From Halorubrum salinum (GTDB lineage: Archaea; Halobacteriota; Halobacteria; Halobacteriales; Haloferacaceae), in assembly GCF_024494575.1 (NCBI RefSeq), contig NZ_JANHDO010000002.1:310001-374000 (forward strand): DNA of 64,000 nt, given 5' to 3'. Made by a program: the position numbers and the translations under genes. The notes beneath the pieces were generated by a model. It was not told where the DNA came from, did no database searches, and saw nothing but the letters and a program-made list of their open reading frames with translations. The first letter of the stretch is position 1; the number at the start of each line of letters is the position of its first letter. Below, one piece after another: positions 11,404 through 50,846 of the stretch.

Positions 11404-14118
11404 ATGTCTCACGAGGGTTACGACCACACCGCGGTCGAAGAACGGTGGCAGGCGGCCTGGGCGGAGGCCGACGCGTACCGAACGCCGGACGAGGTTGACG
11501 ACCCAACCTACGTGTTGGGGATGTACCCGTACCCGTCCGGGAAACTCCACATGGGCCACGTCCGCAACTACACGATTACGGACGCGTACGCCCGGTACCG
11601 CAGAATGCGCGGCGACGACGTGCTCCACCCGATGGGGTGGGACGCGTTCGGCCTCCCGGCCGAGAACGCCGCGAAGGAGCGCGACACCAACCCCCGCGAC
11701 TGGACGTTCGACTGCATCGACACGATGCGCGGACAGATGCGGTCGATGGGATTCGGCTATGATTGGGACCGCGAGATCACAACCTGCGTCCCCGAGTACT
11801 ACGAGTGGAACCAGTGGCTCTTCTCGCGATTCGCCGACGCCGACCTCGTCGAGCGGCGCGACGCCGAGGTGAACTGGTGTCCATCCTGTGAGACCGTCCT
11901 CGCGGACGAGCAGGTGGAGGGCGACGCCGAACTGTGCTGGCGGTGTGACACGCCCGTCGAGACCCGCGACCTCGACCAGTGGTTCCTGAAAATAACCGAG
12001 TACGCGGACGAACTCCTGGAGGCCATAGACGACTTGGAAGGATGGCCGAACTCGGTGCGCCAGATGCAGCGCAACTGGATCGGGCGACAGTACGGGACGA
12101 CGCTGGACTTTGCTATCGAGGAGCACGGCTCCGTCGAGGCGTTCACCACCCGCGTGGACACGATCTTCGGCGCGACGTTCTTCGCGCTCGCGCCGGATCA
12201 TCCCATCAGCGAGGAGCTGGCGGAGGCGGACGACGCGGTCCGCCGCTTCATCGAGGAGGAGGCCGACCCCGACGGCGACGAGCCGAACGGTGTCGAGACG
12301 GGTCTCACCGCCACGAACCCCGTCACGGGCGAGGAGATACCCGTCTTCGTCGCCGACTTCGTCCTCTCGGACGTTGGGACGGGCGCGCTGATGGCCGTGC
12401 CCGGCCACGACGAGCGCGACCACGCCTTCGCGGAAAAGATGGGCGTCGACATCGAGCCCGTGGTCGCGCCGGAGCCCGACGACTGGGACGGGGAGGCGGT
12501 CCCAGACGCGCCCGACGTGGGCGACGAGCCGTTCACCGACGACGGCGTGCTCGTCAACTCCGGCGCGTACAGCGGTCTCGACAGCGACACGGCCCGTGAG
12601 CGGCTGACCGAGGACATCGAGAGCGCCGCGGAGAGCACCCAGTACCAGCTTCGCGACTGGGGGATCTCCCGTCAGCGCTACTGGGGGACGCCGATCCCGG
12701 TCGTCCACTGCGACGACTGCGGCCCCGTGCTCGTCCCGGACGAGGACCTCCCGGTCGAGCTACCCGAGTTCATCAACACGACCGGAAACCCCCTCGACGC
12801 GGCCGAGGAGTGGAAGGAGACGACCTGTCCGGAGTGCGGCGCGCAAGCGACCCGCGAGACGGACACGATGGACACGTTCGTCGACTCCTCGTGGTACTTC
12901 CTGCGGTACGTCTCGCCGGACCTGGCCGACGCGCCCTTCGATCTGGACCGCGCCAACGACTGGATGCCGGTCGACCAGTACGTCGGCGGCATCGAACACG
13001 CCGTGATGCACCTGCTTTACTCTCGCTTTTTCACCAAGGTGCTCGCCGACGAGGAGGGGCTCGAACACCGCGAGCCGTTCACGAACCTGCTCGCGCAGGG
13101 AATGGTGCAGCTTGACGGCGAGAAGATGTCCAAATCGAAGGGGAACACGGTCTCGCCCCAGCGCATCGTCGAGGAGTACGGCGCGGACACCGCGCGGCTG
13201 TTCATGATGCAGGCGGCCCAGCCCGAGCGCGACTTCGACTGGAGCGAGGAGGGCGTCAAGTCGACGCACCGGTTTTTGGCCCGGCTCTCCGACCTCGTCG
13301 AGGAGTACGCCGCAGGCGACGTCGAGACGGCCGGATCCGATGCGGTCGAGCCGGGCGACGCGGCCGACGCCAGCGACTCGTCTCCCGACCGCGAGACGAT
13401 CGACGAGTACGTCGCGGCCGAGACCGACGCCGCCGTCGCCATCGCCGGCGACGAGTACGACGACCTAACGTTCAACGTCGCGTTACGCGAGGCACAGGAC
13501 TTGGTGGGGACGCTTCGGAGCTACCGCGAGCACGCCGAACCGCACCCCGAGATATACGAGCGGAGTCTCGACGTCGCCGTTCGGCTGCTCGCGCCCGTCG
13601 CGCCGCACCTCGCGGAGGAGCTGTGGGAGACGCTCGGTCGCGACGGGCTCGTCGTCGACGCCGACTGGCCGGCCGCGACCGCCGACCGCGAGACGGTCGA
13701 GCGCCGCCGCAGACTGGTGGCGAACACCCGCGAGGACGTGCGCGACATCGTCGACGTCGCCGGGATCGACGACCCCGAGCGGATCGACGTCGTCGTCGCG
13801 CCCGGCTGGAAGTACGACGCCCTCGAACTCGCGCTCGACAGCGACGCCGACAACCTCATCTCCGAACTCATGCAGGAGTCACACATCCGCGAACGGGGCG
13901 ACGCAGCCGCCGACTACGGGCAGGACCTGCAGGCGAACCGCGAGGCGCTACGGGAGACGCTCGCCGGCGACGACGAGTTCGACGCGCTCCGCGCGGCCGC
14001 GTGGCTGATCGAGCGGGAGTTCGACGCCCCGGTGCGAGTCGAGCGCGCCGCCGACGCCGACGAGAGCGTCGTCCGGAAGGCGGAGCCGGGTCGTCCCGCG
14101 ATCGACATCGCCGAGTAG
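11404..14118 (+). CDS. leuS: Leucyl-tRNA synthetase
   Basis: A 904-residue class Ia synthetase that charges tRNA-Leu. The HIGH motif is HMGH at residues 49-52, within MYPYPSGKLHMGHVRNYTI. KMSKS starts at Lys574 (GEKMSKSKGNTVSP). The CP1 editing domain lies between, with the T-rich AFTTRVDTIFGATFFALAPDHP and a VPGHDERDHAF motif. Zinc-like CDDCG and CPECG pairs are present. The frame is open upstream to 11236, but that extension is Ser/Arg-rich and unlike the family, so I take the ATG at 11404. The sequence resembles the bacterial type of LeuRS, as is common in haloarchaea. Confidence 0.96.
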   Translation: MSHEGYDHTAVEERWQAAWAEADAYRTPDEVDDPTYVLGMYPYPSGKLHMGHVRNYTITDAYARYRRMRGDDVLHPMGWDAFGLPAENAAKERDTNPRDWTFDCIDTMRGQMRSMGFGYDWDREITTCVPEYYEWNQWLFSRFADADLVERRDAEVNWCPSCETVLADEQVEGDAELCWRCDTPVETRDLDQWFLKITEYADELLEAIDDLEGWPNSVRQMQRNWIGRQYGTTLDFAIEEHGSVEAFTTRVDTIFGATFFALAPDHPISEELAEADDAVRRFIEEEADPDGDEPNGVETGLTATNPVTGEEIPVFVADFVLSDVGTGALMAVPGHDERDHAFAEKMGVDIEPVVAPEPDDWDGEAVPDAPDVGDEPFTDDGVLVNSGAYSGLDSDTARERLTEDIESAAESTQYQLRDWGISRQRYWGTPIPVVHCDDCGPVLVPDEDLPVELPEFINTTGNPLDAAEEWKETTCPECGAQATRETDTMDTFVDSSWYFLRYVSPDLADAPFDLDRANDWMPVDQYVGGIEHAVMHLLYSRFFTKVLADEEGLEHREPFTNLLAQGMVQLDGEKMSKSKGNTVSPQRIVEEYGADTARLFMMQAAQPERDFDWSEEGVKSTHRFLARLSDLVEEYAAGDVETAGSDAVEPGDAADASDSSPDRETIDEYVAAETDAAVAIAGDEYDDLTFNVALREAQDLVGTLRSYREHAEPHPEIYERSLDVAVRLLAPVAPHLAEELWETLGRDGLVVDADWPAATADRETVERRRRLVANTREDVRDIVDVAGIDDPERIDVVVAPGWKYDALELALDSDADNLISELMQESHIRERGDAAADYGQDLQANREALRETLAGDDEFDALRAAAWLIEREFDAPVRVERAADADESVVRKAEPGRPAIDIAE

Positions 14119-14164
14119 CCGCGGACCCGCACACTTACGCCGGCGACGGTCGAGGCTCAGACGA

Positions 14165-15139
14165 ATGGTGGCCGTCGAGAAGTACCAGAGCGTGCTCGTC
14201 GCGGCAGCCGTCCTCGGCGGGTTAGCGCTCGGGCAGGTGTCCGGCGTTCCGCCGGTCGCGGACGCGCTCCTCCTCCCGTTTCTGATGGTGATGCTGTTCG
14301 CGTCGTTCACGGGAGTCCCGCTGTCGCGGCTCCGCGCCGCGTTCGGAAACCGACGCGTCCTCGGATCGAGCCTCCTCGTCAACTTCCTCTGGAGCCCGCT
14401 TCTGGCCGTCGGACTGGGTGCCGTCTTCCTCCGCGACCAGCCGGCGCTGTGGGTCGGGCTCATCATGCTGCTTGTCACGCCGTGTACCGACTGGTACCTG
14501 ATCTTCACCGACATCGCCGGCGGCGACGTGCCCCTCGCGACCTCGCTTCTCCCCTATAACCTCGTGTTACAGCTCCTCTTGTTGCCCGTGTACCTGTACG
14601 TCTTCGCGGGGGCGCTCGTCGAGTTGCCGGTGAGGTTGCTGGCGGAGAGCGTCGTGCTCGTGTTGGTCGTCCCGCTCACGCTCGGGGGAGCGACTCGGTG
14701 GGGGCTGATCCGGTGGCGGAGTCGGCGGTGGTTCGACCGGCGGTTCCTCCCGACGCTGGGGCCGACACAGATCGTCGCTTTGAGCCTCGCGATCGGCGCG
14801 ATGTTCGCCTCGCAGGGCGGAGTCATCGTCGAGAATCCGCGGCTGCTCGCGTTGATGGCGGTCCCCGTGATCGCCTTCTACGCGATCAACCTCGGTGTGG
14901 GGGTCGCCGTCGGCCGCGCGCTCGACTTCTCGTACGGAGAGCTCGTCTGTTTCAACAACACGATATTATCGAGAAACTCGCCGACCGCGCTCGCGATCGC
15001 CGTCGTCGCGTTTCCGAACGAGCCGCTCGTTCCGCTGGCGCTCGTGATCGGTCCGCTGCTGGAGCTTCCGCTGTTGGGGGCCGTCGCGCAGTTGCACGCG
15101 GCGATCAGCGAGCGCGGGTGGTGGGCCGGCGCTCGCTGA
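14165..15139 (+). CDS. ACR3/BASS-like arsenic resistance transporter
   Basis: A 324-residue membrane protein with about ten hydrophobic helices. The segment LLVTPCTDWYLIFTDIAGGDVPLA resembles the conserved cysteine-containing helix of the ACR3/bile-acid symporter superfamily, and NNTILSRNSPTALAIAVVAFP resembles the second crossover helix. ACR3 proteins export arsenite. The arsC-like gene 92 bases downstream supports a role in arsenic handling. No ArsR-like regulator is adjacent. Another BASS substrate cannot be excluded. Confidence 0.78.
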   Translation: MVAVEKYQSVLVAAAVLGGLALGQVSGVPPVADALLLPFLMVMLFASFTGVPLSRLRAAFGNRRVLGSSLLVNFLWSPLLAVGLGAVFLRDQPALWVGLIMLLVTPCTDWYLIFTDIAGGDVPLATSLLPYNLVLQLLLLPVYLYVFAGALVELPVRLLAESVVLVLVVPLTLGGATRWGLIRWRSRRWFDRRFLPTLGPTQIVALSLAIGAMFASQGGVIVENPRLLALMAVPVIAFYAINLGVGVAVGRALDFSYGELVCFNNTILSRNSPTALAIAVVAFPNEPLVPLALVIGPLLELPLLGAVAQLHAAISERGWWAGAR

Positions 15140-15231
15140 AAGAGAACGCGCGATCGATCGATAGAGCGCTCTATAGGCCTCCATACCGCTCCGAAGCAAC
15201 GACTAAACCGGTACCGCTCGGACACCGAGTC

Positions 15232-15687
15232 GTGACCCGACACAGCGAGCAGCCGACCCACCGAGTCGCGTTCGTCTGCGTCCAGAACGCCGGACGGAGT
15301 CAGATGGCTGCCGCGCTCGCCGAGCGCGAGCGCGCCCGTCGCGACGCGGCCGACCGGATCGAGATCGTGACGGGCGGAACGCGGCCCGCAGACCGCGTCC
15401 ACGACGTCGTCGTCGAGGCGATGGCGGAACTGGACATCGACTTGAGCGACCGGACCCCACGGGAAGTAACGCCCGACGAGCTACGTGCGATGGATCTCGT
15501 CGTCACGATGGGCTGTTCGGCCTCCGACGTCTGCCCGGCGGCGTGGAACGGAGAGAGCCGCGACTGGGGGCTCGACGACCCGGACGATAAGCCCCTCGAG
15601 GCGGTCCGAGCGATCCGCGACGAGATCGACGACCGCGTCGCCGCCCTGTTCGACGATCTCGTCTCTGAGACGCCGTCCGCGGAGTGA
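15232..15687 (+). CDS. arsC: Low-molecular-weight phosphatase-fold arsenate reductase-like protein
   Basis: A 151-residue protein from a GTG start. The P-loop C-x5-R is Cys16 to Arg22 in VCVQNAGRSQMAAA. DLVVTMGCSASDVCPAAW follows near the middle, with the extra cysteines used for the intramolecular disulfide cascade in thioredoxin-linked ArsC. An Asp-rich region (WGLDDPDDKPLEAVR) carries the general acid. It should reduce arsenate to arsenite, which the transporter upstream could export. A tyrosine phosphatase role is the alternative. Confidence 0.85.
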   Translation: MTRHSEQPTHRVAFVCVQNAGRSQMAAALAERERARRDAADRIEIVTGGTRPADRVHDVVVEAMAELDIDLSDRTPREVTPDELRAMDLVVTMGCSASDVCPAAWNGESRDWGLDDPDDKPLEAVRAIRDEIDDRVAALFDDLVSETPSAE

Positions 15688-15777
15688 CGGCGCACTCGCC
15701 GCCCTTCGAGCGGCGACCGCGTCGACTTCGGTGTCGCCGGCGCACCCTTTATACCACCGGGAGCGTAAGCGGCGTGT

Positions 15778-16305
15778 ATGCCCCAGTGTGAGATGTGTGG
15801 TGCCGAGCAGGCCTCGCTGACGACGACGAAGGTCGAAGGCGCCGAGCTGGAGCTCTGCAGTTCGTGTACGGACTTCGGCACGGAGGTCCGCGACGAGTCC
15901 ACGAGCTCCGGCGGCAGCAAGTACTCCACGAGTTCAGACACCGGGACGTCGTCTTCGTCGTCTTCCGCTTCGTCCTCGTCGTCTTCGTCCGGACAGTCGA
16001 CCCGTCCCCGAGACATGTTCGACGACATGGACGAGATCGCGACGGACTACGACGAACGCATCCGCGCGGCCCGCGAATCGAGCGGTCTGAGCCAGGAGGA
16101 GCTCGCCGACCAGCTCAACGAGAAGGCGAGTCTCATCCGGAAACTCGAACGCGGCGACACCCTTCCCACGGACGATGTCCAGCGCAAGCTCGAACGCGCG
16201 CTCGACATCTCGCTCGTCGAGGGAGAGTCCGTCGACGACGCCGACTGGGACTCCGGTGACGCGGGGACCATGACGCTCGGCGACGTGGTCAAGCGAAAGG
16301 ACTGA
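15778..16305 (+). CDS. MBF1-like multiprotein bridging factor (TIGR00270 type)
   Basis: A 175-residue regulator. Residues 4-30 form a zinc ribbon (CEMC at 4-7, CSSC at 27-30). A Ser-rich linker of about 40 residues follows. Residues about 93-147 hold a Cro/C1-type helix-turn-helix (IRAARESSGLSQEELADQL...SLIRKLERGDTLPTDD). This is the archaeal MBF1 layout, a proposed bridge between activators and the TBP/TFB machinery. The start fits a TATA-like CTTTATACC at about 15749. Confidence 0.9.
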   Translation: MPQCEMCGAEQASLTTTKVEGAELELCSSCTDFGTEVRDESTSSGGSKYSTSSDTGTSSSSSSASSSSSSSGQSTRPRDMFDDMDEIATDYDERIRAARESSGLSQEELADQLNEKASLIRKLERGDTLPTDDVQRKLERALDISLVEGESVDDADWDSGDAGTMTLGDVVKRKD

Positions 16306-28100: not shown

Positions 28101-29771
28101 TCAGTTGTACTCGACCGGTCCACCGATAACGGTGTCGCTGCGTTGGGCGGTGACCTCGATGTCGAAGTCCGACGCGGGGTTTTGGAGATCGAATGCACAG
28201 GAGACCCCGCCGGCGGAGTCGACCGTGGCCACGCAGTTGAGGACCTGACTGATGCCGCCGTTCGGCTCCTCGGCTTCCACGCGGACGATGACCGAACTGC
28301 CCGGTGCGAGGTTGGTGTCGGCGGTCACGGTCAACCGGGGGTCATCGCCCACGGACCGGTCCGTGAACTCGACGGACGGCTCGACGACCGCGAACGGCTG
28401 CCGCAGCGTCACTCGCGGGACGGGCTCGGGAGCGGCCTCGCCCACCGCGAGCGTCATCGCGTACTCGCCGGTCTCGAACGCGTCCGTGTCGACGGTCGCG
28501 ACGAGCCCGCCGGCGGCGTGGTCGTAGCTCGTCTCGACCGCCGCGAGCGGTGCGATCGGCACGTCGCCGTCGGCCGTCGTCGGCCGGAGGTCCACGCCGT
28601 ATCCGAGCGTTCCCTGCCCGGCGGGACCGTACAGCACGATCCCTTGTTCGCTGTGTGTCTTCCGTTCACCGCGGAGCGTCACTGCGACGTCTTCTGCCCC
28701 CGTCGTGTCGGGATTCTCCATCGCGTACGCCAACCGGAACGTGTGGTTTTCCGAGACGGCGATCGGTCGGTCGAACGTGAGCGTCACGCGGCCGTCGGTG
28801 CTCGTCCGGATGTTCTGGATGGCTATCCCGACGGAGCGGTCGACGAAGCCGTCTCCTGTCTCGTCGACGCCGATCGCCTCGATGTCGCTTCGAGAGAACT
28901 GGTGGACGCTCGCGGGCGGCGTGCCGCCGTCGACCCCGTAGTCGACGGTCACAGACCGCATCGACAGGGAGTCTTCAGGTGTCGTCTGTACCGCGTGCGT
29001 CGTCTGCGCGTCCGGCGTGCTGTCCGTCGGATACACGAGGTTGCGAGCCGGTGCGGGCGATTCGACGATACCGCCGAGCCCGTCGACGGCGAAGCGCGTT
29101 CGGACGCGGTCGCCGCGGGCGGCGGAGACGGACGGCGACGACGCACTGAACGCGCCGGTCGCGGTCCCGTCCGTCGCTTCGGTCGCCTCGTCGCTCGCGA
29201 GCCCGCCCTCTTCACCCGCGTCCGGGTTCGCCTCCGCTCCGGTCTGGTTGTCGGGCTGTGGAGCCGACCCGTCAGGGCCGACGACGCTGGCGTCGCTGCT
29301 CCCGGAATCGGGCGCGTCGAGGGTGAGCACGGACGCGACGCTCGTCTCAGCGGTCGAGACGATCAGGTTGTAGCGCCCGGTGTCGAACACCGACGCGTCG
29401 GTGGCGCTCGACTCGGAGAGGAGCCGGGCAGCGTCCGCGTCGCCCTCGGCGGTGAAGCGGTCGGCGGCGTCACCGTCGGCTCCGCGGAAGGTGTTGACGC
29501 GGACGCGGACGGTGCCGTCGTCGTCGCCGTCACGGACGCGGAGCGTGGCCCGGTACTGCTGGTCGGACGAGCGAATTCGGAGGGTGGCCTGGTCGGTGTT
29601 GCGCAACTGGAGGTCGATCGTCGCGACGTCGCCCTGTGCGACCGTCGTCTGGCCGTCGCCGAAGCCGACGGCGGGGCCAGACTGCGCCGCTGCGGGGGCG
29701 GCGAACGGCGCAGCGATCCCCCCGAGACCGACGAGGAGGACCGCCGCGACGAGGGCGAGACGTGTGTGCAT
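28101..29771 (-). CDS. Secreted surface protein, BGTF/DUF7827-like
   Basis: A 556-residue protein starting MHTRLALVAAVLLVGLGGIAAP, a Sec signal with likely cleavage after APAAAQ. The mature start (GFGDGQTTVAQGDVATIDLQLRNTDQATLRI) and the later NTFRGADGD and FDTGRYNLIVSTAET pieces resemble the repeat domains of haloarchaeal S-layer-type surface proteins. The C-terminal third is a second beta-rich domain ending VIGGPVEYN, with two cysteines (NCVATV, SCAFD) that could pair. No membrane anchor or PGF motif is seen, so it may be held by other surface proteins. AAGTATTTAC at 29801-29810 (minus strand) is 30 bases before the ATG. Confidence 0.75.
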   Translation of the reverse strand: MHTRLALVAAVLLVGLGGIAAPFAAPAAAQSGPAVGFGDGQTTVAQGDVATIDLQLRNTDQATLRIRSSDQQYRATLRVRDGDDDGTVRVRVNTFRGADGDAADRFTAEGDADAARLLSESSATDASVFDTGRYNLIVSTAETSVASVLTLDAPDSGSSDASVVGPDGSAPQPDNQTGAEANPDAGEEGGLASDEATEATDGTATGAFSASSPSVSAARGDRVRTRFAVDGLGGIVESPAPARNLVYPTDSTPDAQTTHAVQTTPEDSLSMRSVTVDYGVDGGTPPASVHQFSRSDIEAIGVDETGDGFVDRSVGIAIQNIRTSTDGRVTLTFDRPIAVSENHTFRLAYAMENPDTTGAEDVAVTLRGERKTHSEQGIVLYGPAGQGTLGYGVDLRPTTADGDVPIAPLAAVETSYDHAAGGLVATVDTDAFETGEYAMTLAVGEAAPEPVPRVTLRQPFAVVEPSVEFTDRSVGDDPRLTVTADTNLAPGSSVIVRVEAEEPNGGISQVLNCVATVDSAGGVSCAFDLQNPASDFDIEVTAQRSDTVIGGPVEYN

Positions 29772-30080
29772 GTACGTGGTTTCCCGTACCGTCGTCGGGG
29801 GTAAATACTTTCTGTCCCGGGTGTCCGTGATCGACAGATATAGCGGCTCTATCTGCGGATTCGTTGTCGCGAGGATCACACGTCAGAGCCGTGGCCAGCT
29901 TGGTAGTGTGACGTATCGTGTCGTGTCCATGCAATTGTCGTCGATCACGGCATATCGTCGGTGTAGCGTCGCCGTTGGTATCGACTCGCAGCGCCGTCGC
30001 TGGTCGGTGCGAGCGCGTTCGAAAAATGGAACCGCAAACCGCGTGAGCCGAACGGGCGTTCGTTCGGTGGTTAGTGGTCG
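29772..30080. other. Intergenic region downstream of the S-layer gene
   Basis: About 309 bases. The left end holds the TATA box of the minus-strand gene at 28101-29771 (29801-29810). The rest should contain the S-layer terminator. CGAACGGGCGTTCG at 30050-30063 is a near-perfect palindrome 18 bases past the S-layer stop. No gene is seen. Confidence 0.5.
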
Positions 30081-32999
30081 TTAGTTGTCGCGACGGGTCG
30101 CGAGGAGCGCGGCCGCGATGAGGGCGACGAGGGCGACGAGCGCGCCGAAGCCGGGCGTGCCGTCGTCCGTGGAGTCACTGCCATCGTCGGAGCCGTCGTC
30201 GGAGCCGTCATCGGAGCCGTCGTCGGTACCGTCGTCAGTACCGTCGTCGGTTCCGTCATCGGTTCCGTCGTCGGAGCCGTCCTCACCGTCGTCAGAGCCG
30301 TCCTCACCGTCGTCAGAGCCGTCCTCACCGTCGGTGGTTTCGCGCTCCTCGACGATTTCGACCTGAACGCGGTCCGTACTCTCGCCGTCGTCGGCTTCGA
30401 GGATGTACGTACCGGTCTCGAGGTCAGACGTGTCCATGGAAGCGCTCCACTGACCGTCACTGCCCCATTCGTCGGTGGAAGCCGACGCGACGTTGTTGTC
30501 CTCCTCTGTCAGGAGTTCAAGCGTGATGGCCGCGTTGTCGGACTGACGGTTCGTGTCACCGTCAACGACGAGCGTCTCGCCGGTCGCAACCGGGTTGATG
30601 CCAGAGGCCTCAGCCTCTTCGGGGTAGACATCGTTGATCGAGAGAGTCGGATCGTTCAGACGGAAGCTCGTCGAAACGATCAGGTCGTCGCTCGCGGTGT
30701 CATCAACCGTGTTCTCGAGGATCCGGCTACGGATCTGATCGCCAGTGTTGGAACTGGAGCTGTAGTCGTTGATCGTGGTCGCAACTTCGCTAGCACTTGT
30801 CCAACCATCCGAATCTGCACCGAATTCGCCGTCACGGCCGGGCGAAATCACGTGGCCCGAGACCGAGCCCTGTGAGATGTCGGTGAGCGGGATGTCGTCC
30901 TCTTCGAACGTGTCGTCGCTGTCGACGCTGATCGTTTCAGCGTACGTGTCACCACGTTCTCCGACGAACGCGACGACGACGGAGTCCTGACCAGCTGCGG
31001 TTCCGTCAACATCGATCTCATCGTCGACTTCATCCGCAATCTGGCCGTTGACCGTACCGAAGTTAGCGGTGAGGTCACCGGCTTCGACAGTGATCGTGTC
31101 GCGGCTACTCGATGCACTGCTGAATTCAGACGTGGTAAGCGTGCCGTAGTCGCTGGGCAGGTCCGCAGCGTCGACGACACCAATGTCGTACTGACCCTCG
31201 AATGCGAGGATGTTACTCGCGTCGCGGAGGTTCACATCCTCCTCTTCGAAGGAGTCGTCGGAGTCGACAGAGATGAAGTCATCCGAGTCAGCGTCACTGC
31301 CGTCCGTGTCGATGTCGAGCAGTTCCCAGTCGCTGTTGTCGCGAGCGTAGATTGCAACGTCGTCCGCGCTCTGAGCAGTACCGTTCACGTCAACTTCCGA
31401 ACCGATCGTGTAGGTGTCAGTCGGGCTGTTGAGTGCGATTTCGCCTTCCTCAACATCGAAGCTCACGTCGTCAACGGATTCGTCGTCGGACTTGTTCGCG
31501 TCCGGCGAAGACTGACCTTCGTACACGTCGAGGTCGACCGACGAGTCGTCAAGGTTGTCCGTGCTGATCGAACCGAGTGCAGTCGTGCCGTCAACCTCGA
31601 CGACAGCGTACGCGTAGTCGACATCTTCTGCATCAGCGGGCGAGTCAGTGTCGCCTGCAACGTCGTACACGCCGACAGAGTCGACATCCTCAACATTGCG
31701 GAAGATGCTCTCAGCGTCGCTGACGGTGAAGCCGTCACGGAAGTCGGAAGACTCGATCGCAACGGTGTGGAACTGACCGTCAGTAGAGCCACTCACGGTG
31801 TACTCAAGGTTGGATCCCTGAGTGACAGTGTCCGAGGCCGTGTCGATCGAGACTTCGTCTTGGTTGGTCGTTTCGATGGTGTATTCCTGAACCACACTGT
31901 CGTGGTCGAGGTCACCCTCGCCTTCGAAGATGACAGTGTATTCACCAGCGTCCTCGGAACTTAGGTCGAGATCAACCGACTCGTCCCCACCTTCGAGGAT
32001 ATCGTCAGCGCTCGCGTCGTTGCTAGTGTCGATAACCTCGTTGGTGATCTCGGAGCCACTCGGATCCTCGACAGAGACTTCGAGATTTTCAGCGTTACCG
32101 AAGTTCCACTCTGCAGCAATCTCGAAGTTGCGGCTAGCACTGGTGTCGGTAACTGCGTTCGAGGCAGCGATCTGCTCGATGTCGTCACCGTTCAGCTGAA
32201 CCTCGGCAGTAGTGATCCGCGGCTCAACGACGGAAACCGCGAAGCTGTTTCCACTGTAGGATGTACCAGCAGTCGAGTAAGTTCCTGTTTCTTCATCCTC
32301 CGGGATCGGCATCTGCAATGGTGTACCTTCTCGGTTTCCGGAGGTTCCTTCTAGGTCGGAAGCATCGACGACCTGGCCGCTTTCGTCAATAAACGTCACG
32401 CCCTCTTCCCCTTGGAAGACTTGCGTGTTGTTGTACGCAACGTCTTCACCAGCAGTCCGCTGAGTGCTGGTAGGCGCGTTGAGGTCAAACGTATCCGAAT
32501 CGAGACTGGTTCCAGAAGTGTCCTGAATCTGGTACTCGATTCCAGACTGAGCATCGCTGGCGGACAGGCCGCTCGTGTCGTGAGTGAGGGTAACAGTAAG
32601 GTTCACCTCACCGTCACTACTCATGTCTGTCAGAGTAACATTCGTTCGACCATCACTGTCGAACGCGGCGCTGGTATTCCCACCAGTTGCGCCGGTCGAA
32701 CCGGCGTCATTTAGTGTGACAGAGACATCGGTATCCTGCCCTTCCAGAATGGCGTCCGGAAGCACGGAAGTGTCGATGTAGACACTATCGCTTGATGACT
32801 CAATTGTTGCGTTAAACTCCACTTCTTGTGTATCTGTACTATCGCTGATCGTCACGTCCTCTACGTTATTGATCGTCGCAGCACTAGCGGTTGCAGCTGC
32901 AGGTGCAGCAGCAAAGCCAGCAGCGACCATGGAGAGTACCATGAGGACGCTGAAGAAGACCGCGTTGGCCTTCGAGCGTGTGTTATTGTTGTTTGTCAT
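30081..32999 (-). CDS. csg: S-layer glycoprotein with PGF-CTERM anchor
   Basis: A 972-residue acidic protein. The N-terminus KANAVFFSVLMVLSMVAAGFAAAPAAATASA fits the surface-glycoprotein signal peptide. The mature chain is beta-rich with N-x-S/T sequons such as NAT, NTS, NVT, NLT and NNT. Near the C-terminus is a long run of SDDG, EDGS and TDDG units, then TPGFGALVALVALIAAALLATRRDN, a PGF-CTERM signal for archaeosortase A processing and lipid anchoring. Base use is much less G+C-rich than in neighbours. The start follows from the signal peptide; the promoter is about 155 bases upstream, giving a long leader. Confidence 0.9.
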   Translation of the reverse strand: MTNNNNTRSKANAVFFSVLMVLSMVAAGFAAAPAAATASAATINNVEDVTISDSTDTQEVEFNATIESSSDSVYIDTSVLPDAILEGQDTDVSVTLNDAGSTGATGGNTSAAFDSDGRTNVTLTDMSSDGEVNLTVTLTHDTSGLSASDAQSGIEYQIQDTSGTSLDSDTFDLNAPTSTQRTAGEDVAYNNTQVFQGEEGVTFIDESGQVVDASDLEGTSGNREGTPLQMPIPEDEETGTYSTAGTSYSGNSFAVSVVEPRITTAEVQLNGDDIEQIAASNAVTDTSASRNFEIAAEWNFGNAENLEVSVEDPSGSEITNEVIDTSNDASADDILEGGDESVDLDLSSEDAGEYTVIFEGEGDLDHDSVVQEYTIETTNQDEVSIDTASDTVTQGSNLEYTVSGSTDGQFHTVAIESSDFRDGFTVSDAESIFRNVEDVDSVGVYDVAGDTDSPADAEDVDYAYAVVEVDGTTALGSISTDNLDDSSVDLDVYEGQSSPDANKSDDESVDDVSFDVEEGEIALNSPTDTYTIGSEVDVNGTAQSADDVAIYARDNSDWELLDIDTDGSDADSDDFISVDSDDSFEEEDVNLRDASNILAFEGQYDIGVVDAADLPSDYGTLTTSEFSSASSSRDTITVEAGDLTANFGTVNGQIADEVDDEIDVDGTAAGQDSVVVAFVGERGDTYAETISVDSDDTFEEDDIPLTDISQGSVSGHVISPGRDGEFGADSDGWTSASEVATTINDYSSSSNTGDQIRSRILENTVDDTASDDLIVSTSFRLNDPTLSINDVYPEEAEASGINPVATGETLVVDGDTNRQSDNAAITLELLTEEDNNVASASTDEWGSDGQWSASMDTSDLETGTYILEADDGESTDRVQVEIVEERETTDGEDGSDDGEDGSDDGEDGSDDGTDDGTDDGTDDGTDDGSDDGSDDGSDDGSDSTDDGTPGFGALVALVALIAAALLATRRDN
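30181..30333 (-). repeat. Acidic SDDG/TDDG/EDGS tandem repeats in the S-layer gene
   Basis: The minus strand encodes about a dozen four-residue units (SDDG, TDDG) and longer EDGSDDG units in a row, just before the PGF-CTERM. On the plus strand it reads as repeats close to CCGTCGTCGGAG. The tract is prone to slippage, so its length may vary between strains. Confidence 0.85.
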
Positions 33000-33153
33000 T
33001 GTTTGCGTTGTTGTCTGCGTTCCGAGTACGCCAGCAGTTTTGTCCTCGACACTCCGTCTCGATTCGCCATCCGCGTCGAGACGGACGACGTGTGTCGGAT
33101 TACTCGCTCCTGTCGCGTTCGGGGATAGGGGCATGATGACCATACAGTGGTTC

Positions 33154-33166
33154 TTATAAATACTTT
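33154..33166 (-). promoter_or_regulatory. S-layer gene TATA box
   Basis: On the minus strand the sequence reads AAAGTATTTATAAG, a strong haloarchaeal TATA box. It lies about 155 bases before the ATG at 32999. Transcription should start near 33132, giving a leader of about 130 bases, in line with the long leaders known for other csg genes. The nearby 28101-29771 gene has a similar AAGTATTTAC box. Confidence 0.75.
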
Positions 33167-33453
33167 GTGTGTATTCTGTGGTGTGTGAAACCGTCACAAC
33201 CGGCGGGAGAGGCGTCGAGATGGGCGTTTTCGAAATCGGTTGGTCGAGGTCTGATGTCGTCGATGGCGAACTCCATGCCGACCGATCCGTTCTGCGAGAG
33301 CGTTGAGCAAGAATAGAAGTGAGATCTGCTCGTGCACGTGTACGATCTACACGAACAACAGAACGAATCGGCTCGCGAACTCACCGCTGCGTCTCTCTAA
33401 TCAGATGCTCACTCCAACCCGATAGAATCGACCGAACGCTGCGTACGGGTTTC

Positions 33454-34098
33454 CTATTGGCTGTTTGCAGTAATCGTGAGGGTGTAGTCCGTGGTTGGAA
33501 GGTCCCCGTCGACCCCCCCGTTGATCAGATCGATAACCATCCCGAAGTCGATCGAGGTCCCGGGACTGAGGGTGCTCGTGACGTCGCCGTTACCGCTGTT
33601 GCTGCCGAGAGCCTCGTTCCCGTTGTCGATGGTAGCCTCAGTTGAACCGTCGTCGATCGTAAACTGGAATGTGCCACTAGGAACGCTATCGTCGGTATCC
33701 GGCGAAATACTCAGCGTCAGAGAGCCTATGTCCTGTGTTCCGTTATTGGTTATCGTGACCAAGTTGCGGAATGTCGTAATCGCGTCCTGATTCAGACCCG
33801 TCCCGCCGTCGTCGGCGTCGCCGTCATTCCCACCGTCGAGATTGATCTGAATCGTCCCGTCTGTCTGCTCAACGTACTCGTTCTGGTTTGCGCCCGTCGA
33901 GGCGTTGGCCGGTGATGAATCTGTGTCGTCGGTTCGATCTGCTGCCTCTAACCCGAGGAAGCCATCCGCGTCGCCCGCGGTCTGAACGGAGACCGTCCGC
34001 TGAGCCTCCACCGTGTCGAACGCCCCCGTGCTCAAGATCGCGCCGCCGCCCGCGACCAGTCCGCCGAGTCCGATCAGAACGCTGCGTCTGTTTGCCAT
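33454..34098 (-). CDS. Tat-exported DUF1102-like protein (paralogue 1)
   Basis: A 214-residue exported protein. It starts MANRRSVLIGLGGLVAGGGAILSTGAFDTVEAQRTVSV, with a twin-Arg signal followed by the GAFxxVEAxRxVSV pattern of DUF1102-like haloarchaeal proteins. The mature part is Asp/Asn/Gly-rich and beta-like, with FRNLVTITNNGTQDIGSLTLSI and TSIDFGMVIDLINGG segments. The promoter core at 34123-34133 lies 25-35 bases before the ATG, so leaderless expression is likely. The TasA/CalY-like fold is only a guess from the signal and beta-rich body. Confidence 0.78.
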   Translation of the reverse strand: MANRRSVLIGLGGLVAGGGAILSTGAFDTVEAQRTVSVQTAGDADGFLGLEAADRTDDTDSSPANASTGANQNEYVEQTDGTIQINLDGGNDGDADDGGTGLNQDAITTFRNLVTITNNGTQDIGSLTLSISPDTDDSVPSGTFQFTIDDGSTEATIDNGNEALGSNSGNGDVTSTLSPGTSIDFGMVIDLINGGVDGDLPTTDYTLTITANSQ

Positions 34099-34122
34099 AT
34101 CTACACCTTGCCCCTCTACCCA

Positions 34123-34133
34123 CTTTGTATTGG
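34123..34133 (-). promoter_or_regulatory. Promoter core CCAATACAAAG of paralogue 1
   Basis: Read on the minus strand, CCAATACAAAG lies about 27 bases before the ATG at 34098, the right distance for a TATA element. The same 11 bases occur on the plus strand at 34242-34252, ahead of the divergent gene. Confidence 0.6.
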
Positions 34134-34241
34134 CTCGCTTGAACGGCCGCAAGCGCGGCGTGAACCCGGTATCGCACTCCTTGAATCGACCGGCGCAGCC
34201 GGTGTCGAAGTGCCCACCCCGCGGACGCGGCGGAAAGCCCA

Positions 34242-34252
34242 CCAATACAAAG
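34242..34252 (+). promoter_or_regulatory. Promoter core CCAATACAAAG of paralogue 2
   Basis: An exact copy of the 11-base element that serves the divergent gene, here facing right. It lies about 55 bases before the ATG at 34302, so the transcript would have a short leader. Confidence 0.55.
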
Positions 34253-34301
34253 CCTTCGGGTGACGTATCGAGGGCACAGCGCGCACCTCGCTGCACATCG
34301 C

Positions 34302-34877
34302 ATGATCACCCGACGACAGACCGCGATCGGCCTCGCCTCCGCGGCGCTCGGCAGCGCCGTCGTCAGCTCCGCGTCCGTCTTCTCCGGCAGCGCCGCGGCG
34401 GAGGCCGACCTCCGCGTCGTCGTCTCCTCGGAGCTTGCCCTCCGTCCCGGGCGCGCGGGCGAAGACGAGGACTATGTCCAGACTGACGGCGACGGCCGCG
34501 TCGAGGCGATCGAGATCGAGAAGCTGAACCGCCGGTCGATCTCGCGGTTCGAGGACCTCGTCGTCGTCGCGAACGAGGGCGAGGTCCCCTACGACCGGCT
34601 CGCCTTCGCGTTCGCCGCGACCGGCGACGACTCCGACGGACAGAGCGCGGCGGCCGCCGAGGCCCTCCGCGTCGTCTCCGGCGAGGAGCCGACCGAGACC
34701 GACGATCAGGGGCGGACGACCCTGCTCGCGGCCCCCGACGAGACGTTCGACCCCGGCGACGCGGTGTCGTTCGGACTGGTCGTGAACCTGATCGCAGACG
34801 ACGCGCCCGGCGACCTCGACGCGATCCCGGACGGCGCGAGCGTCAGACTGGAGATCGCTGCGGTCGACGAGGAATGA
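34302..34877 (+). CDS. Tat-exported DUF1102-like protein (paralogue 2)
   Basis: A 191-residue protein starting MITRRQTAIGLASAALGSAVVSSASVFSGSAAAEADLRVVV. The twin-Arg signal and the following ADLRVVV strand match the other Tat proteins nearby. The mature chain is highly acidic with VVVANEGEVPYDRLAFAF and DAVSFGLVVNLIADDAPGDLDAIPDGASVRLEIAAVDEE segments, the last resembling the end of paralogue 1. It is divergent from paralogue 1 and is more G+C-rich than paralogue 3. Function unknown. Confidence 0.75.
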   Translation: MITRRQTAIGLASAALGSAVVSSASVFSGSAAAEADLRVVVSSELALRPGRAGEDEDYVQTDGDGRVEAIEIEKLNRRSISRFEDLVVVANEGEVPYDRLAFAFAATGDDSDGQSAAAAEALRVVSGEEPTETDDQGRTTLLAAPDETFDPGDAVSFGLVVNLIADDAPGDLDAIPDGASVRLEIAAVDEE

Positions 34878-35119
34878 TCGAATTCTGATGTTTGTCCCAC
34901 ACGCGGAACTGACTGGGCCGTGGTAACGTGCGACACGAACAGTCATGTCTCGAACGGATCTCGCTCCGATCGGGTGGTGTAGCGCGGTCATCGTGCGGAT
35001 TCAAGCGGCGCTTGAATCGACGCTTGATTTCGTGGACCCGTTCAAGCCTGCCCTTCGGTCGTTTCAGGTAACTCACTACTAAGTGGATACCGGCACAGGA
35101 TCGAGTAGGTGGAAGCTAC

Positions 35120-36019
35120 ATGGTCAAACGACGCAGCATGGTGATCGGGCTCGGCGCGCTGGCGACCGGGAGCGGGGCAGTGTTCTCGTCGGCGGCGTTC
35201 TCGAATTCAACGGCATCAAGTGCCGACTTGCGGGTGGTCGTCGAGGAAACGCTGAATTTCGAGCCGAACGAAGATGCGGTCAACGGGGACACTATCCTCG
35301 GCCCAGATCAGTTCGACGATATCGCTGATGTTGATGACTTCTTTGACGATCAAGACACTCTCGACAGCAGTCTTGAAACACCAATCGCAGCGACGAACGG
35401 AGCGGCGAATGAGAACCTCAGGCTAGTCGCTGCAGTCGATTTCGGCCAGACAGCAACGTTCTCCGAGCTGTTTACCCTCAAAAACGACACTTCTGAACCG
35501 GTTGATGTCGGTATTGCGTACGACCGAAACGACACCGATTCCGGATTTCTCGACAACAGTGCAACCGGACAATACGGCGGAGACATCGCGGTCAACGACG
35601 AAGGTGGCCTCTCGCCGGCGCTCTCACGAGCCTCATACCAGTTCGTAATGAGCGATCCCGGTCCTCTCGAGTTCACCGATGGCGGCGGCTCCGTCACTGG
35701 TCTGATCTCACCGGCGAAGAATGGCAGTTTTATCGGAGACGATCCGGAAGTAGATCAGGGAAGTGCTGACAGCGTCGTCGGTAGCGGTTCCAGTGGTATC
35801 GACGCTCGCGATCGGCCAGCGAGTGCGGTCAGGCTGGATCCTGGGGAGGAAACTACTGTTGATCTCGTCGTTGACACAACGTACGACTCTGATGTCCGAG
35901 ACGCGCTCCAAACACAGGCTGACTTCGGCGGTAACGGGTTCGGTACTAGAAGAGCGACGATCGACTTGTTGGATGGGCTGACGGTCGGGACGCTCGACGA
36001 TCCGACATCCAGTAATTAA
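35120..36019 (+). CDS. Tat-exported DUF1102-like protein (paralogue 3)
   Basis: A 299-residue protein starting MVKRRSMVIGLGALATGSGAVFSSAAFSNSTASSADLRVVVEE. The twin-Arg signal, GAVFSSAAFS and ADLRVVV strand are like those of its neighbours. The mature part is beta-rich with FSELFTLKNDTSEPVDVGIAYDRNDTDSG and a late TVDLVVDTTYDSD segment. Base use is clearly less G+C-rich than in paralogue 2, closer to the S-layer gene. The CTACTAAG stretch at about 35076-35083 may be its TATA region. Function unknown; likely at the cell surface. Confidence 0.75.
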   Translation: MVKRRSMVIGLGALATGSGAVFSSAAFSNSTASSADLRVVVEETLNFEPNEDAVNGDTILGPDQFDDIADVDDFFDDQDTLDSSLETPIAATNGAANENLRLVAAVDFGQTATFSELFTLKNDTSEPVDVGIAYDRNDTDSGFLDNSATGQYGGDIAVNDEGGLSPALSRASYQFVMSDPGPLEFTDGGGSVTGLISPAKNGSFIGDDPEVDQGSADSVVGSGSSGIDARDRPASAVRLDPGEETTVDLVVDTTYDSDVRDALQTQADFGGNGFGTRRATIDLLDGLTVGTLDDPTSSN

Positions 36020-36088
36020 CCGCTCACCGCTTGCGCACCGTGCAGTGATGAGCAAAGCTATTTGATGCGTTCAATTCAGTATCATGGC

Positions 36089-36631
36089 ATGTCCTCTCGG
36101 CGAAAAGCAACCGTGGCCGCCGGGATCACGGTCATGACAAGCCTCGGTGGCTGTCTCGACAGATTACTCGACCGATCCACTGGTACCGACTCAGGCACAG
36201 TTGTGCAACAGCGAGAGATCGTCACCACGTACGACGACGCGGTCGTCGCCCGCAACGATGCCACGACGGCCCGCGACGAGGGAGTCACCGCGTTCAACGA
36301 GGAGTCGTACCCGGCCGCGATCGAGTCGATCGAGACCGCACTGACGGAGTACCGGACCGCGAACGAGGGGTTCGCCGAGGCGGCCGACCTCGCCCGCGAA
36401 CTCGACGAGGACGACGCCGCCGCGCTCTGTGAGACGGCCGTCACGGAGACGGCCCTGCAGGTCGACGCCACGGAGGCGGCCCTCTCGGCAGCGCGGGCGG
36501 CCGACGGAGACGCGGACGCCGGGACGATCAACGGCCACATCGAGACGTTCCGTACCTACCGCGACGAGGCCGCGGCGCTCACCGTTGAAGACGCCGACGC
36601 GGTCGCGGTCGCGCTCGGCTTAGAACCGTAG
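36089..36631 (+). CDS. Putative Tat lipoprotein, helical
   Basis: A 180-residue protein. MSSRRKATVAAGITVMTSLGGC gives a twin-Arg signal with a lipobox, Cys22 as the lipid site. The mature part is Ala/Glu/Asp-rich and helical, with a repeat-like pattern (AVVARNDATTARDEGVTAFNEESYPAAIESIETALTEYRTANEGF) that looks like TPR- or coiled-coil-type helices. An ATG at 36065 and a TTG at 36062 are in frame upstream, but the TATA-like CTATTTG at about 36058 favours 36089. It follows paralogue 3 by 69 bases. Function unknown. Confidence 0.7.
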   Translation: MSSRRKATVAAGITVMTSLGGCLDRLLDRSTGTDSGTVVQQREIVTTYDDAVVARNDATTARDEGVTAFNEESYPAAIESIETALTEYRTANEGFAEAADLARELDEDDAAALCETAVTETALQVDATEAALSAARAADGDADAGTINGHIETFRTYRDEAAALTVEDADAVAVALGLEP

Positions 36632-36710
36632 CGTCGCGTTCGCCCGTCTCCCGTTCTGATCCGACACCCGAATAGTATATACGGACTGAAACGAACTCTT
36701 CGCGTGAGAT

Positions 36711-37334
36711 GTGTGGGAGCAGGGCCCCTCCACGGGTTCGAGCGCTGCCGCCGCGCCGAACGCACCCGCGAGCGGAGGCGTCGTGAGCGTGTCGCTCACG
36801 GACCAGCGGGAGTACACCCGCCCGGAGAAAGACGAGCTGTACGACCTGTTGAGCAACCACCGCCGGCGGTACGTGATCCACTTCTGCAAGCAGACCGACG
36901 AGCCGCTGTCGCTTTCGGACCTAGCGGAGCGAGTCGCCGCCCGCGAGCAGGACAAGTCGGTGACGGAGCTCACCTCTGCCGAACGCAAGCGCGTGTACAC
37001 CTCACTCCAACAGACGCACCTCGACAGGCTGGCCGACGCCGGCATGATCGCGTACGACGGCGACCGGATCGAACTCACCGACGAGGCCGCTGCCCTCGAC
37101 GTCTATCTCGACGTCGTCCCCGAAGGGTCGATCTCGTGGGGGGTCTACTACCTCGGCGTCTCGCTTCTGTCCGCGCTCGTGCTGGCCGGCGTGTGGGTCG
37201 GGTTCGTCCCCACGGAGACCGTTCCGGCGATCGGGTGGGCCGCGGTGATCCTCGCGGTGTTCCTCGTCTCTTCTGTCGCGCAGGTGATACAGAACCGGCG
37301 CTACAGGCTCGGCGGGAGCGAGGAACCGCCGTGA
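36711..37334 (+). CDS. Winged-helix membrane protein (DUF7344-like)
   Basis: A 207-residue protein. Residues about 35-125 form a winged helix with KDELYDLLSNHRRRYVIHFCKQ, LSLSDLAERVAARE and VYTSLQQTHLDRLADAGMIAYD, the look of haloarchaeal DUF7344 domains. Two hydrophobic helices follow (GVYYLGVSLLSALVLAGVWVGFV; IGWAAVILAVFLVSSVAQVI). It could be a membrane-tethered regulator of the nearby surface genes, which is inference. A TATA-like AGTATATACG at 36675-36684 suits a leaderless GTG start at 36711; a GTG at 36783 is the alternative. Confidence 0.75.
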   Translation: MWEQGPSTGSSAAAAPNAPASGGVVSVSLTDQREYTRPEKDELYDLLSNHRRRYVIHFCKQTDEPLSLSDLAERVAAREQDKSVTELTSAERKRVYTSLQQTHLDRLADAGMIAYDGDRIELTDEAAALDVYLDVVPEGSISWGVYYLGVSLLSALVLAGVWVGFVPTETVPAIGWAAVILAVFLVSSVAQVIQNRRYRLGGSEEPP

Positions 37335-37473
37335 TGGGCGTTCGGCCACGGCAATACTTATGTCCACGTCACCTACGTTTCGCACGGAACGACGCCTCAG
37401 GCTCCGTCGGGCGCGGACGGCGTGGGCGAACCGAGACGAACACGAGTGAGGCGACACGGGGAACGGGGACACG

Positions 37474-38529
37474 ATGGGACGGAAACGAAAGCGCAGCCGC
37501 GGTAATTCGAGCGGCCTCGTGAGCCGCCGCGCCGCCCTCGGCGTCCTCCTCACCGGCGGTGCCGCCGCCGCCGGCGTCCAGGGGACGGGCGCGTTCTCGT
37601 CGGTCACCGGCGACCGGCAGTTCAGCGTCGGGACCGCGGACGACGACAACGCGCTCCTCGGGATAGAGCCGCGGGACCCGACGGGCACGTCGGGCGACAC
37701 GGTGCCGCTGTTCACCGTGACGAACCGACTTTCGGAGTCGCTGACGCTCGAACAGGTCGGCGTCGTCGACGCCGGGTCGCTCGGGATCACCCGAACCGAT
37801 CTGCAGATCGACCGGTGGACGCTGCAGCCGGGCGAGTCGACCGACATCGAGGCCGGACTCTCGTGCGCCTCGGGCGCGACCGACGACGTCACCCTCGCGA
37901 TCCGCGCGGTCACCACCGACCGCGACGAGTCGATCGAGCTCACGCGGTCGACGACGGTCGCGTGTCAGGTCCCGGCCGCGAAGTGCCTTACCGATCCGGA
38001 GATCGAACTCGAAGGCGAGACCGTCCCGTGTATCGACGTCGACCTCCGGGGCGGCGGGGAGGTCGAGATCGAGGCCGAGGGCAGCGTCGTCAACGGCGAC
38101 GCGACGGTCACGCTCGGAGGCGGCGGCAAGGTCTCGGTCGAACTGGAGGGGAGCGAGATCCGAGGCGACCTCGACATTCAGATACGGGGCGGCGGGGAGG
38201 TGTCGATATCGCTCGCAGACAGCGAGATACGCGGTGAGATTCGGATCGAGACCCCGGGCGGAGCCGAAGTCGAACTCGAGATGGAAAACGCCGCGATCGG
38301 CGGCGGGGTCACCGCCACGCTCGGCGGTGGCGGTACGCTCGGCCTCTCGATGGAAGGGAGCACTATCGGCGGCGACACGGAGATCACCACCGGCGGCGGC
38401 GCGAGCGTCAAAGTCGAGATGGAGGGAAGCGCGATCCGCGGAGACCTCGCCGTCGACACGGGAGGCGGGAGCAGCGTCGAGGTAGAGACCGAAGACAGCG
38501 AGATAGACGGGTCCCGTCCGGACGGCTGA
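37474..38529 (+). CDS. Tat-exported protein with seven 23-residue repeats (paralogue 4)
   Basis: A 351-residue protein. A basic start leads to a twin-Arg signal (LVSRRAALGVLLTGGAAAAGVQGTGAFSSVTGDRQFSVGTADDD), the same signal pattern as paralogues 1-3. Residues 45-175 are a beta-rich domain with TVTNRLSESLTLEQVGVVDAG. Residues about 190-347 are seven tandem repeats of about 23 residues, each with GGG, a V/I-x-V/I-x-E strand, S-x-I and GD, consistent with a beta-solenoid. Cys residues at 131, 164, 171 and 186 could pair. CAATACTTATG at about 37350 is a TATA candidate, with a leader near 95 bases. Confidence 0.78.
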   Translation: MGRKRKRSRGNSSGLVSRRAALGVLLTGGAAAAGVQGTGAFSSVTGDRQFSVGTADDDNALLGIEPRDPTGTSGDTVPLFTVTNRLSESLTLEQVGVVDAGSLGITRTDLQIDRWTLQPGESTDIEAGLSCASGATDDVTLAIRAVTTDRDESIELTRSTTVACQVPAAKCLTDPEIELEGETVPCIDVDLRGGGEVEIEAEGSVVNGDATVTLGGGGKVSVELEGSEIRGDLDIQIRGGGEVSISLADSEIRGEIRIETPGGAEVELEMENAAIGGGVTATLGGGGTLGLSMEGSTIGGDTEITTGGGASVKVEMEGSAIRGDLAVDTGGGSSVEVETEDSEIDGSRPDG

Positions 38530-49518: not shown

Positions 49519-49571
49519 GCCATCATTGGCTAACCATTGGTTTATCAATGTACCGCACGAACCAGTAGTTG

Positions 49572-50846
49572 ATGAAGCGGACCAACACATTCGACGTGGT
49601 TCCTCAGTCTGACGAGGACGAGGAGTTGCTTCGACGCCTGTTGGACGCTTCTGCCGCTCTCTGGAACGAAATCAACTACGAGCGCCGCGAACACTACGCC
49701 GACCCCGACGCGGACGTGTGGGAAATCAGCGAGTATCGCGGCCGGTACGGCGAGACGCTCGGCGCGTCCACGGTTCAGCAAATCGAACGGAAGAACCGTG
49801 AAGCGTGGCGGTCGTTCTTCGCGCTCAAGAAGAAGGACGAAGCCAACGGCAAGCCCGGATACTGGGGCAACGCCGAGGACGGTCGCGAACTCCGAACGTA
49901 CATCCGCAACACGTCGTACACCGTCGAGTGGGGCGAATACTCCCGACTCGAAATTCTCGTCGGAAAAGACCTGAAAGACGAGTACGGGTTGGGACACCGC
50001 GAACGTCTCCGGCTCGAAGTCCGGGGCGAACCCAATTGGAAAGAGTACGACAAGCAGGGACGGTTAGAGTTGTTCTGGGACGAGAACGCACAATCATTCA
50101 GGGCCTTTCAGCCAGTCACGATCGACAATTCTCGGCTGGCACACCCACTGGCGGACGAAACCGCCGCGCTGGATATTGGTGCGAACAACCTCGTCGCCTG
50201 TTCGACTTCGACCGGCACCCAACTGCTGTACGAGGGGCGCGACCTGTTCGAGCGGTTCCGCGAGACGACGCGAGAAATCGCCCGGCTTCAATCGCTCTTG
50301 GACGACGGCCGGTACAGCAGTCACCGGATACGCTCGCTGTACCGACGACGGACGCGCCGCCGCGACCACGCCCAAGACGCGCTTGCCCGCGACCTCATCG
50401 AACGGTTGCACGGCGAGGGCATCTCCACGGTGTACGTCGGCGCGTTGACGGACGTACTCGACACGCACTGGTCGGTCGAAGCGAACGCCAAGACACACAA
50501 CTTCTGGGCGTTCCGGCAGTTCATCGACCGACTCGCGTGTACTGCCGAGGAGTACGGTATCTCGGTGGAGGTCCGCTCGGAAGCGTGGACCAGCCAAGAG
50601 TGTCCGCAGTGTGGGTCCACGGACCGGACGACGCGCCATCGCGACACGTTGACGTGTCCATGCGGCTTCGAGGGACACGCAGACCTCACCGCAAGCGAGA
50701 CGTTCCTGAGACGGCAGACCGACGTAGCACGGCCGATGGCACGGCCTGTGCGCCTCAAGTGGAACGACCACGACTGGTCAGAGCTACCACGCTCTTGTTC
50801 CAACGAGGAGCGCACGAACCCGCAAGTTGCCTCCGTGGGTCGGTAA
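49572..50846 (+). CDS. tnpB: RNA-guided endonuclease TnpB family protein (element B)
   Basis: A 424-residue TnpB of a different subgroup from element A. RuvC pieces are Asp201 in [23 protein letters not shown], and the zinc finger with [11 protein letters not shown]. The middle motif has Gly-Ala where active TnpBs have Glu-Asp. The zinc finger has CPQC and CPCG. The ATG at 49572 is preferred to the TTG just before it. The N-terminal part ([24 protein letters not shown]) and [20 protein letters not shown] look like a normal TnpB wedge. Confidence 0.88.

Follow-up and report, generated by a model that had tools for sequence, protein, structure and literature searches.

The stretch analysed here, the window, comprises 64,000 nucleotides (C2:310001-374000, on contig C2) of the 2.73-Mb genome of Halorubrum salinum, and positions are given in window coordinates unless another prefix is shown. 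It carries a cluster of four genes, P0001 to P0004 (Table 1), whose products resemble the subunits of the Tat-fimbriae (Tafi) of haloarchaea, reportedly described in 2025 by Galeva et al. Each product begins with a twin-arginine signal and an uncharged Gly/Ala/Ser-rich h-region, followed by TGAF (P0001 and P0004), ASVFS (P0002), or SAAF (P0003), and then by a strand of the R-x-V-x-V or D-L-R-V-V-V type. All four thus have the signal class of Tafi subunits, from which export by the twin-arginine translocation (Tat) pathway is predicted. The initial annotation had set genes with such signals at 33454, 34302, 35120, and 37474, and they lie there; the signal pattern that it ascribed to all of them holds for the arginine pair, the Gly/Ala/Ser-rich stretch, and the strand, but the (G)AF element fails in P0002. 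It was also right that the mature parts differ greatly in length (about 155 to 310 aa) and in base composition, the G+C content at third codon positions (GC3) being 0.73 in P0001 and 0.62 in P0003 versus 0.93 in P0002 and 0.88 in P0004, and that a lipoprotein and a winged-helix membrane protein (DUF7344) sit among them.

The mature parts belong together. In hhalign comparisons made with the signals removed, P0001 was linked to P0002 (E = 7.8e-19), P0004 (4.3e-9), and P0003 (2.6e-7), and P0002 to P0003 (1.3e-6), while the pairs P0002-P0004 and P0003-P0004 gave no direct detection; the four are therefore one diverged family, joined through P0001. The NCBIfam TafE model matches P0001 (E = 3e-18), P0003 (7e-7), and P0002 (2e-5), all under its curated cut-off, and Pfam gave no family above threshold for P0001 to P0004. 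Against the whole genome at E ≤ 1, the TafE and TafA models each hit four places, all of them within the cluster for TafE and all except one marginal match (E = 0.27) for TafA; TafC matches occurred in the cluster only. Since the matches are confined in this way, the four-gene pattern is a real, localised family and not a product of chance, and P0001 to P0004 are its sole clear members in the genome.

P0001, which is transcribed divergently from the other three, is the nearest to the solved Tafi pilin. Searched alone against the sequences of the Protein Data Bank with phmmer, it has 9P0A, labelled "Pilin," as its sole significant match (E = 2.1e-11), and a profile built on P0001 recovers the same entry, again as the sole significant match, at E = 8.1e-33; a homologue of the characterised Tafi pilin is thus present in the cluster. 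The P0004 profile matches 9P0A at 6.8e-6, chiefly via the signal region, and its residues from about 170 to 345 repeat with a period of 23 aa (autocorrelation at 23 residues of 0.39 versus at most 0.24 in shuffled sequences), a region predicted to form a beta-solenoid. A scan of genome contigs with the P0001 alignment returned 77 loci, and a scan with P0003 alone returned no matches. The differing mature lengths and the weak direct similarity among mature parts could be read to mean that the proteins have a common Tat signal class and are otherwise functionally independent; this has next to no chance of being correct, given the signal-free profile links, the agreement of both fold searches, and the conservation of the clustering across species.

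Table 1. Features of the subunit cluster and its intergenic regions (window coordinates).
Feature	Position	Strand	Evidence
P0001, Tafi pilin-like subunit, 214 aa	33454..34098	-	Start ATG at 34098, long upstream reading-frame extension excluded; phmmer to 9P0A, profile (A1), TafE/TafA bit scores, AlphaFold2 model
P0002, conserved Tafi-type subunit, 191 aa	34302..34877	+	hhalign to P0001 family; TafE 2e-5
P0003, hypervariable Tafi-type subunit, 299 aa	35120..36019	+	hhalign to P0001 family; AlphaFold2 model, 7UEG first match
P0004, TafC-like subunit with C-terminal repeats	37474..38529	+	NF052521 TafC E = 2.6e-23, residues 17-167; autocorrelation
P0005, Tat-type lipoprotein, probably helical, conserved cluster member	36089..36631	+	Twin arginine, then lipobox LGGC; orthologues at same place in relatives
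P0006, DUF7344 winged-helix protein, hydrophobic C-terminal membrane segments, candidate regulator	36711..37334	+	PF24035 E = 1.3e-27
S-layer glycoprotein gene	30081-33197	-	TIGR04216 E = 4e-207
Promoter box of P0001, CCAATACAAAG on minus strand	34123..34133	-	CTTTGTATTG invariant in 11 aligned sequences
Promoter box of P0002, CCAATACAAAG, mirror copy of P0001 box	34242..34252	+	Alignment of window and ten relatives
Half-site GCTTGAA	34137..34143		Motif search, alignment
Half-site CTTGAA, 42 bp from preceding half-site (34137)	34180..34185		Motif search, alignment
Palindrome TTCAAGCGGCGCTTGAA upstream of P0003	35000..35016		Sole genome copy at ≤1 mismatch
Half-site TTCAAGC, 31 bp from second palindrome arm	35041..35047		Motif search
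Conserved promoter-like block of P0003, TTTCAGGTAAC...ACTAAGTGG	35062..35086	+	Also in most relatives' P0002-P0003 intergenic regions

Predicted structures point in the same direction. The AlphaFold2 model of P0001 (54 homologues) has eleven strands and a predicted local distance difference test score (pLDDT) of 75, and Foldseek ranked as its first four matches 9P0A ("Structure of Natrinema sp. J7-2 Tafi pilus"), 7PNB (Sulfolobus thread), 7UEG (Pyrobaculum bundling pilus), and 8AUR (TasA), 9P0A alone falling below E = 0.001. With VIA, where a Z below 8 is, taken alone, no more than suggestive, P0001 scored 7.6 against 7UEG (root-mean-square deviation, rmsd, 5.5 over 135 residues), 7.5 against 9P0A (3.4 over 125), 6.9 against 7PNB (4.0 over 127), and 4.9 against 8AUR. 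The P0003 model (14 homologues, pLDDT 62, moderate confidence) matched 7UEG first in Foldseek (E = 1.3e-3), and VIA gave Z 7.8 for 7UEG (rmsd 4.4, 152 residues), 5.9 for 9P0A, and 5.8 for 7PNB; TasA was not among the listed fold matches of P0003, an absence that is uninformative. These matches carry weight because they agree with the sequence evidence. The initial annotation had suggested a fibre like TasA/CalY or the archaeal bundling pilus, to be checked by comparing structures with TasA and AbpA, and both appear in the top four of P0001, the bundling pilus also coming first for P0003; the suggestion was right in kind, although the precise family, Tafi, was not named. The unrelated structures that it had allowed for are not what was found, the mature parts being homologous and the fold matches in agreement. 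A type IV pilus is ruled out, as it would have a class III signal with a site for prepilin peptidase and a retained hydrophobic N-terminal helix, in place of the twin-arginine signals and beta-rich predicted mature parts seen here.

Several results weigh against the assignment to Tafi. None of P0001 to P0004 reaches the curated NCBIfam equivalog cut-offs for TafA, TafC, or TafE (best bit scores against cut-off of 66/155 for TafE and 38/190 for TafA, both with P0001, and 83/410 for TafC); no TafF match was found among the proteins of the window cluster, to which the search with the TafF model was confined; and the pLDDT values of 75 and 62 are moderate, no VIA Z score reaches 8, and the models give low global TM-scores. 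The solved Tafi pilin, represented by an identical protein in locus L156, is itself under the cut-offs, with 77.6/155 for TafE and 53.1/190 for TafA. The cut-offs therefore define named orthologues and not the whole kind, and the window proteins are not excluded by them.

The locus of the solved pilin offers a direct comparison. Natrinema gari (L156:9998-10636) encodes a protein 100% identical to 9P0A over 213 residues; genes for a 394-aa protein, a SipW-like peptidase, and DUF5305 follow downstream, and a DUF7344 gene is nearby. The 9P0A structure covers 188 of 215 residues, with residue 215 reached by the alignment, so that the mature chain would begin at the Phe of TGAF if the unmodelled part is N-terminal. 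The window system shares with this Tafi (Natrinema sp. J7-2) the Tat signal class, a homologous subunit, the fold, and the promoter box and half-sites, together with SipW-like, DUF5305, and DUF7344 partners. In TasA, a Phe stands at the end of the signal, as in the window subunits. The TasA/CalY and SipW system of Bacillus (8AUR) is further alike in a related fold for P0001 (Foldseek rank 4) and in a SipW-type peptidase partner; it differs in that the window subunits have twin-arginine signals, no TapA homologue was identified, and there is no significant sequence match. The bundling pilus protein AbpA of Pyrobaculum calidifontis (7UEG) is the top or near-top fold match of the P0001 and P0003 models but belongs to another lineage and gives no significant sequence match. 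The Sulfolobus thread (Saci_0406, 7PNB), a fold match at ranks 2-3, is a thin fibre linked by donor strands (PMC9715654); it is Sec-exported and likewise gives no significant sequence match. A literature search found no paper citing 9P0A, and a passage of PMC12687288 cites Galeva et al. 2025 (iScience 28:111793) as the Tafi paper.

Gene order places the cluster within the Tafi type and also sets it apart. In the canonical arrangement, seen at four loci whose TafA exceeds the NCBIfam cut-off (G174, G279, and, from Halorubrum, G015 and G037), TafF-TafE are divergent from TafA, DUF7344, TafC, and SipW, and DUF5305 lies within the stretch examined in two of the four. In the window, TafE-like P0001 is divergent from P0002, P0003, the lipoprotein, DUF7344, and TafC-like P0004, so that P0002, P0003, and the lipoprotein hold the position of TafA; other differences are the 23-residue repeat region of P0004, the lack of an identified TafF among the cluster proteins searched, and a distance of 60-100 kb to SipW and DUF5305. 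About ten Halorubrum relatives keep the subunit block undivided, where the initial annotation had considered that the genes might prove scattered, and in them it is flanked by DUF5305/DUF7504 on one side and a response regulator and SipW on the other. In the window genome, the second flank is found at C2:407032-409200 and the first, with one further conserved neighbour, at C2:442898-446625; the genome has a single clear match to SipW (65% identity, C2:408016) and to DUF5305 (71%, C2:442904). The expected Tafi partners are thus present, DUF7344 and a TafC-like gene in the cluster and SipW and DUF5305 elsewhere. Halorubrum laminariae has SipW at C12:225296, DUF5305 at C12:190189, and the subunit block near 353-358 kb, and across both genomes the two genes lie 60-165 kb from the block. 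The SipW-DUF5305 spacing of about 35 kb in both indicates that the split is old and shared with H. laminariae.

The displacement of SipW and DUF5305, the absence of an identified TafF from the window cluster, and the small genome (2.7 Mb) would also suit a decayed, non-functional Tafi remnant in which the machinery has been separated and the subunits are relics. Every reading frame is intact, however, as are SipW, DUF5305, DUF7504, and the response regulator (50-70% identical to relatives), the promoters and half-sites are conserved, and H. laminariae has retained the split as well, which makes decay highly improbable. The cluster is instead taken, with a probability of about 0.87, to be the subunit part of a Halorubrum Tafi locus, to which SipW and DUF5305 are supplied from distant sites.

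In a set of 59 named Taf-like loci that each span 15 kb or more, SipW and DUF5305 are both found in 40 and a DUF7344 gene in 46. The S-layer gene, which the initial annotation had correctly placed next to the cluster, adjoins the block, apart from the window genome, only in H. laminariae among these loci, so that a general link with the S-layer is ruled out and the neighbourhood is a local rearrangement. This adjacency, the low GC3 that P0001 and P0003 have in common with the S-layer gene, and the long predicted solenoid of P0004 would fit four proteins of the Tafi/TasA fold that form no fibre and make up a surface coat or matrix layer tied to the S-layer; such a layer is improbable, as the adjacency is so restricted and the nearest homologue, 9P0A, was deposited as a pilus. 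The S-layer gene is adjoined by a further surface protein gene (28101-29879, minus strand) with DUF7827 and weak similarity to S-layer glycoproteins, and an open reading frame at 49569-50846 (plus strand), in a low-GC stretch, reads as a transposon-encoded TnpB-type protein.

Haloferax gibbonsii (L157, 10647-12039) has P0003-like and P0002-like genes by DUF7344, DUF5305, and SipW-like genes, and the cluster type thus extends beyond Halorubrum. Tandem arrays far bigger than the window cluster, in which roughly eight or nine Taf-like genes alternate with scattered DUF7344 genes, occur in Halorubrum salipaludis (L086 of genome G026, 4967-15781) and in Halorubrum distributum (L088 of genome G010, 1873-14386). 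At L087:5845-8670, L089:6480-9311, and L090:6657-9473, proteins of about 940 aa with a twin-arginine/TGAF start stand beside a 430-aa partner and are possibly a giant member of the family. One locus with haloarchaeal Taf genes (L098) is by title a Mollicutes metagenome-assembled genome, probably mislabelled or contaminated.

The subunits differ sharply in how well they are conserved. Over 45 species pairs from ten genomes, the signals of P0001 to P0003 have median identities of 77-88%, and the mature parts reach 67% in P0002, 45% in P0001, and 30% in P0003, the last against 77% for its own signal. The DUF7344 protein, at 86%, is the most conserved product among the cluster genes of the window. 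Among the compared cluster genes, GC is lowest in P0001 and P0003 in 10 of 10 genomes. Their pattern fits exposed, fast-changing subunits, and an exchange between strains is possible.

The promoters are conserved. The region between P0001 and P0002 holds two mirrored CCAATACAAAG boxes that are nearly invariant across the window and ten relatives, and four of the six TTCAAGC/GCTTGAA 7-mers of the window fall inside the 445 bp of two intergenic regions (expected about 0.02). Upstream of 132 operon-leading Taf-like genes, a half-site occurs within 250 bp in 49% versus 6.6% of 1011 control genes, and the box in 37% versus 0.4%, counts made on the same loci from which the motif had been recognised by looking at the data first. 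The half-site-to-box distances (58 half-sites, 35 promoters) cluster at 12, 22, 43-44, 54-55, 64, and 75 bp. Their phase concentration near 10.6 bp is R = 0.91, equalled by 0 of 5000 random sets, a figure that is not a probability as the promoters are related by descent and non-independent; counting each distinct distance once gives R = 0.81. The distances are common to Natrinema-type and Halorubrum-type loci, which otherwise differ, and haloarchaea of different families have box and half-sites in the promoters of their Tafi pilin genes, among them the gene of the solved pilin. Half-sites were not found before the displaced SipW, response-regulator, or DUF7504/DUF5305 genes, which by this test are outside the same regulon. 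We tentatively suggest, at slightly less than even odds, that haloarchaeal Tafi pilin operons from Natrinema to Halorubrum are wired by a single ancient cis-regulatory code, in which a CAATACAAAG box has TTCAAG/CTTGAA half-sites upstream on one face of the helix and which a regulator encoded in the cluster reads, and that the exposed mature parts are meanwhile swapped or diversified fast behind conserved signals and promoters.

A working model of the fibre can be drawn from these features. The subunits would be exported folded by Tat, and a dedicated SipW-like peptidase would cut the signal at or near the conserved junction between GA and F. Insertion of the freed N-terminal strand into the following subunit, whose beta-sandwich is open, would then give a thin head-to-tail fibre; this donor-strand assembly is suggested by the folds of known filaments, namely Tafi, bundling pilus, thread, and TasA. 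Donor-strand filaments rank first in the fold searches, and the N-terminal stretch of both models has low pLDDT. As a guess at the roles, the filament may consist mainly of P0001, the leading candidate, with P0003 as a second and variable component; P0002 may serve as a conserved adapter, and P0004, TafC-like with its solenoid, may sit at the base, at the tip, or where the fibre touches a cell, with DUF5305 and the lipoprotein probably acting at the membrane. Shared boxes and helically phased half-sites, to which the DUF7344 protein or the response regulator might bind, would coordinate transcription of P0003 and of the two divergent units of P0001 and P0002, and in the window genome the signal peptidase and DUF5305 would be provided from their distant chromosomal sites.

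Tafi itself is already known, and the interest of the cluster lies chiefly in its split, its variability, and its phased promoter code. Even the Tafi pilin with a solved structure falls below the NCBIfam cut-offs (NF052520, NF052522); Tafi loci are therefore under-annotated, and most will go unnamed by these models. The cluster broadens a recently recognised type of archaeal fibre by a variable form with several subunits and indicates that the peptidase and assembly genes of a fibre can persist apart from its subunits. The fast change of the exposed subunits, if true, would be expected for a fibre under viral attack.

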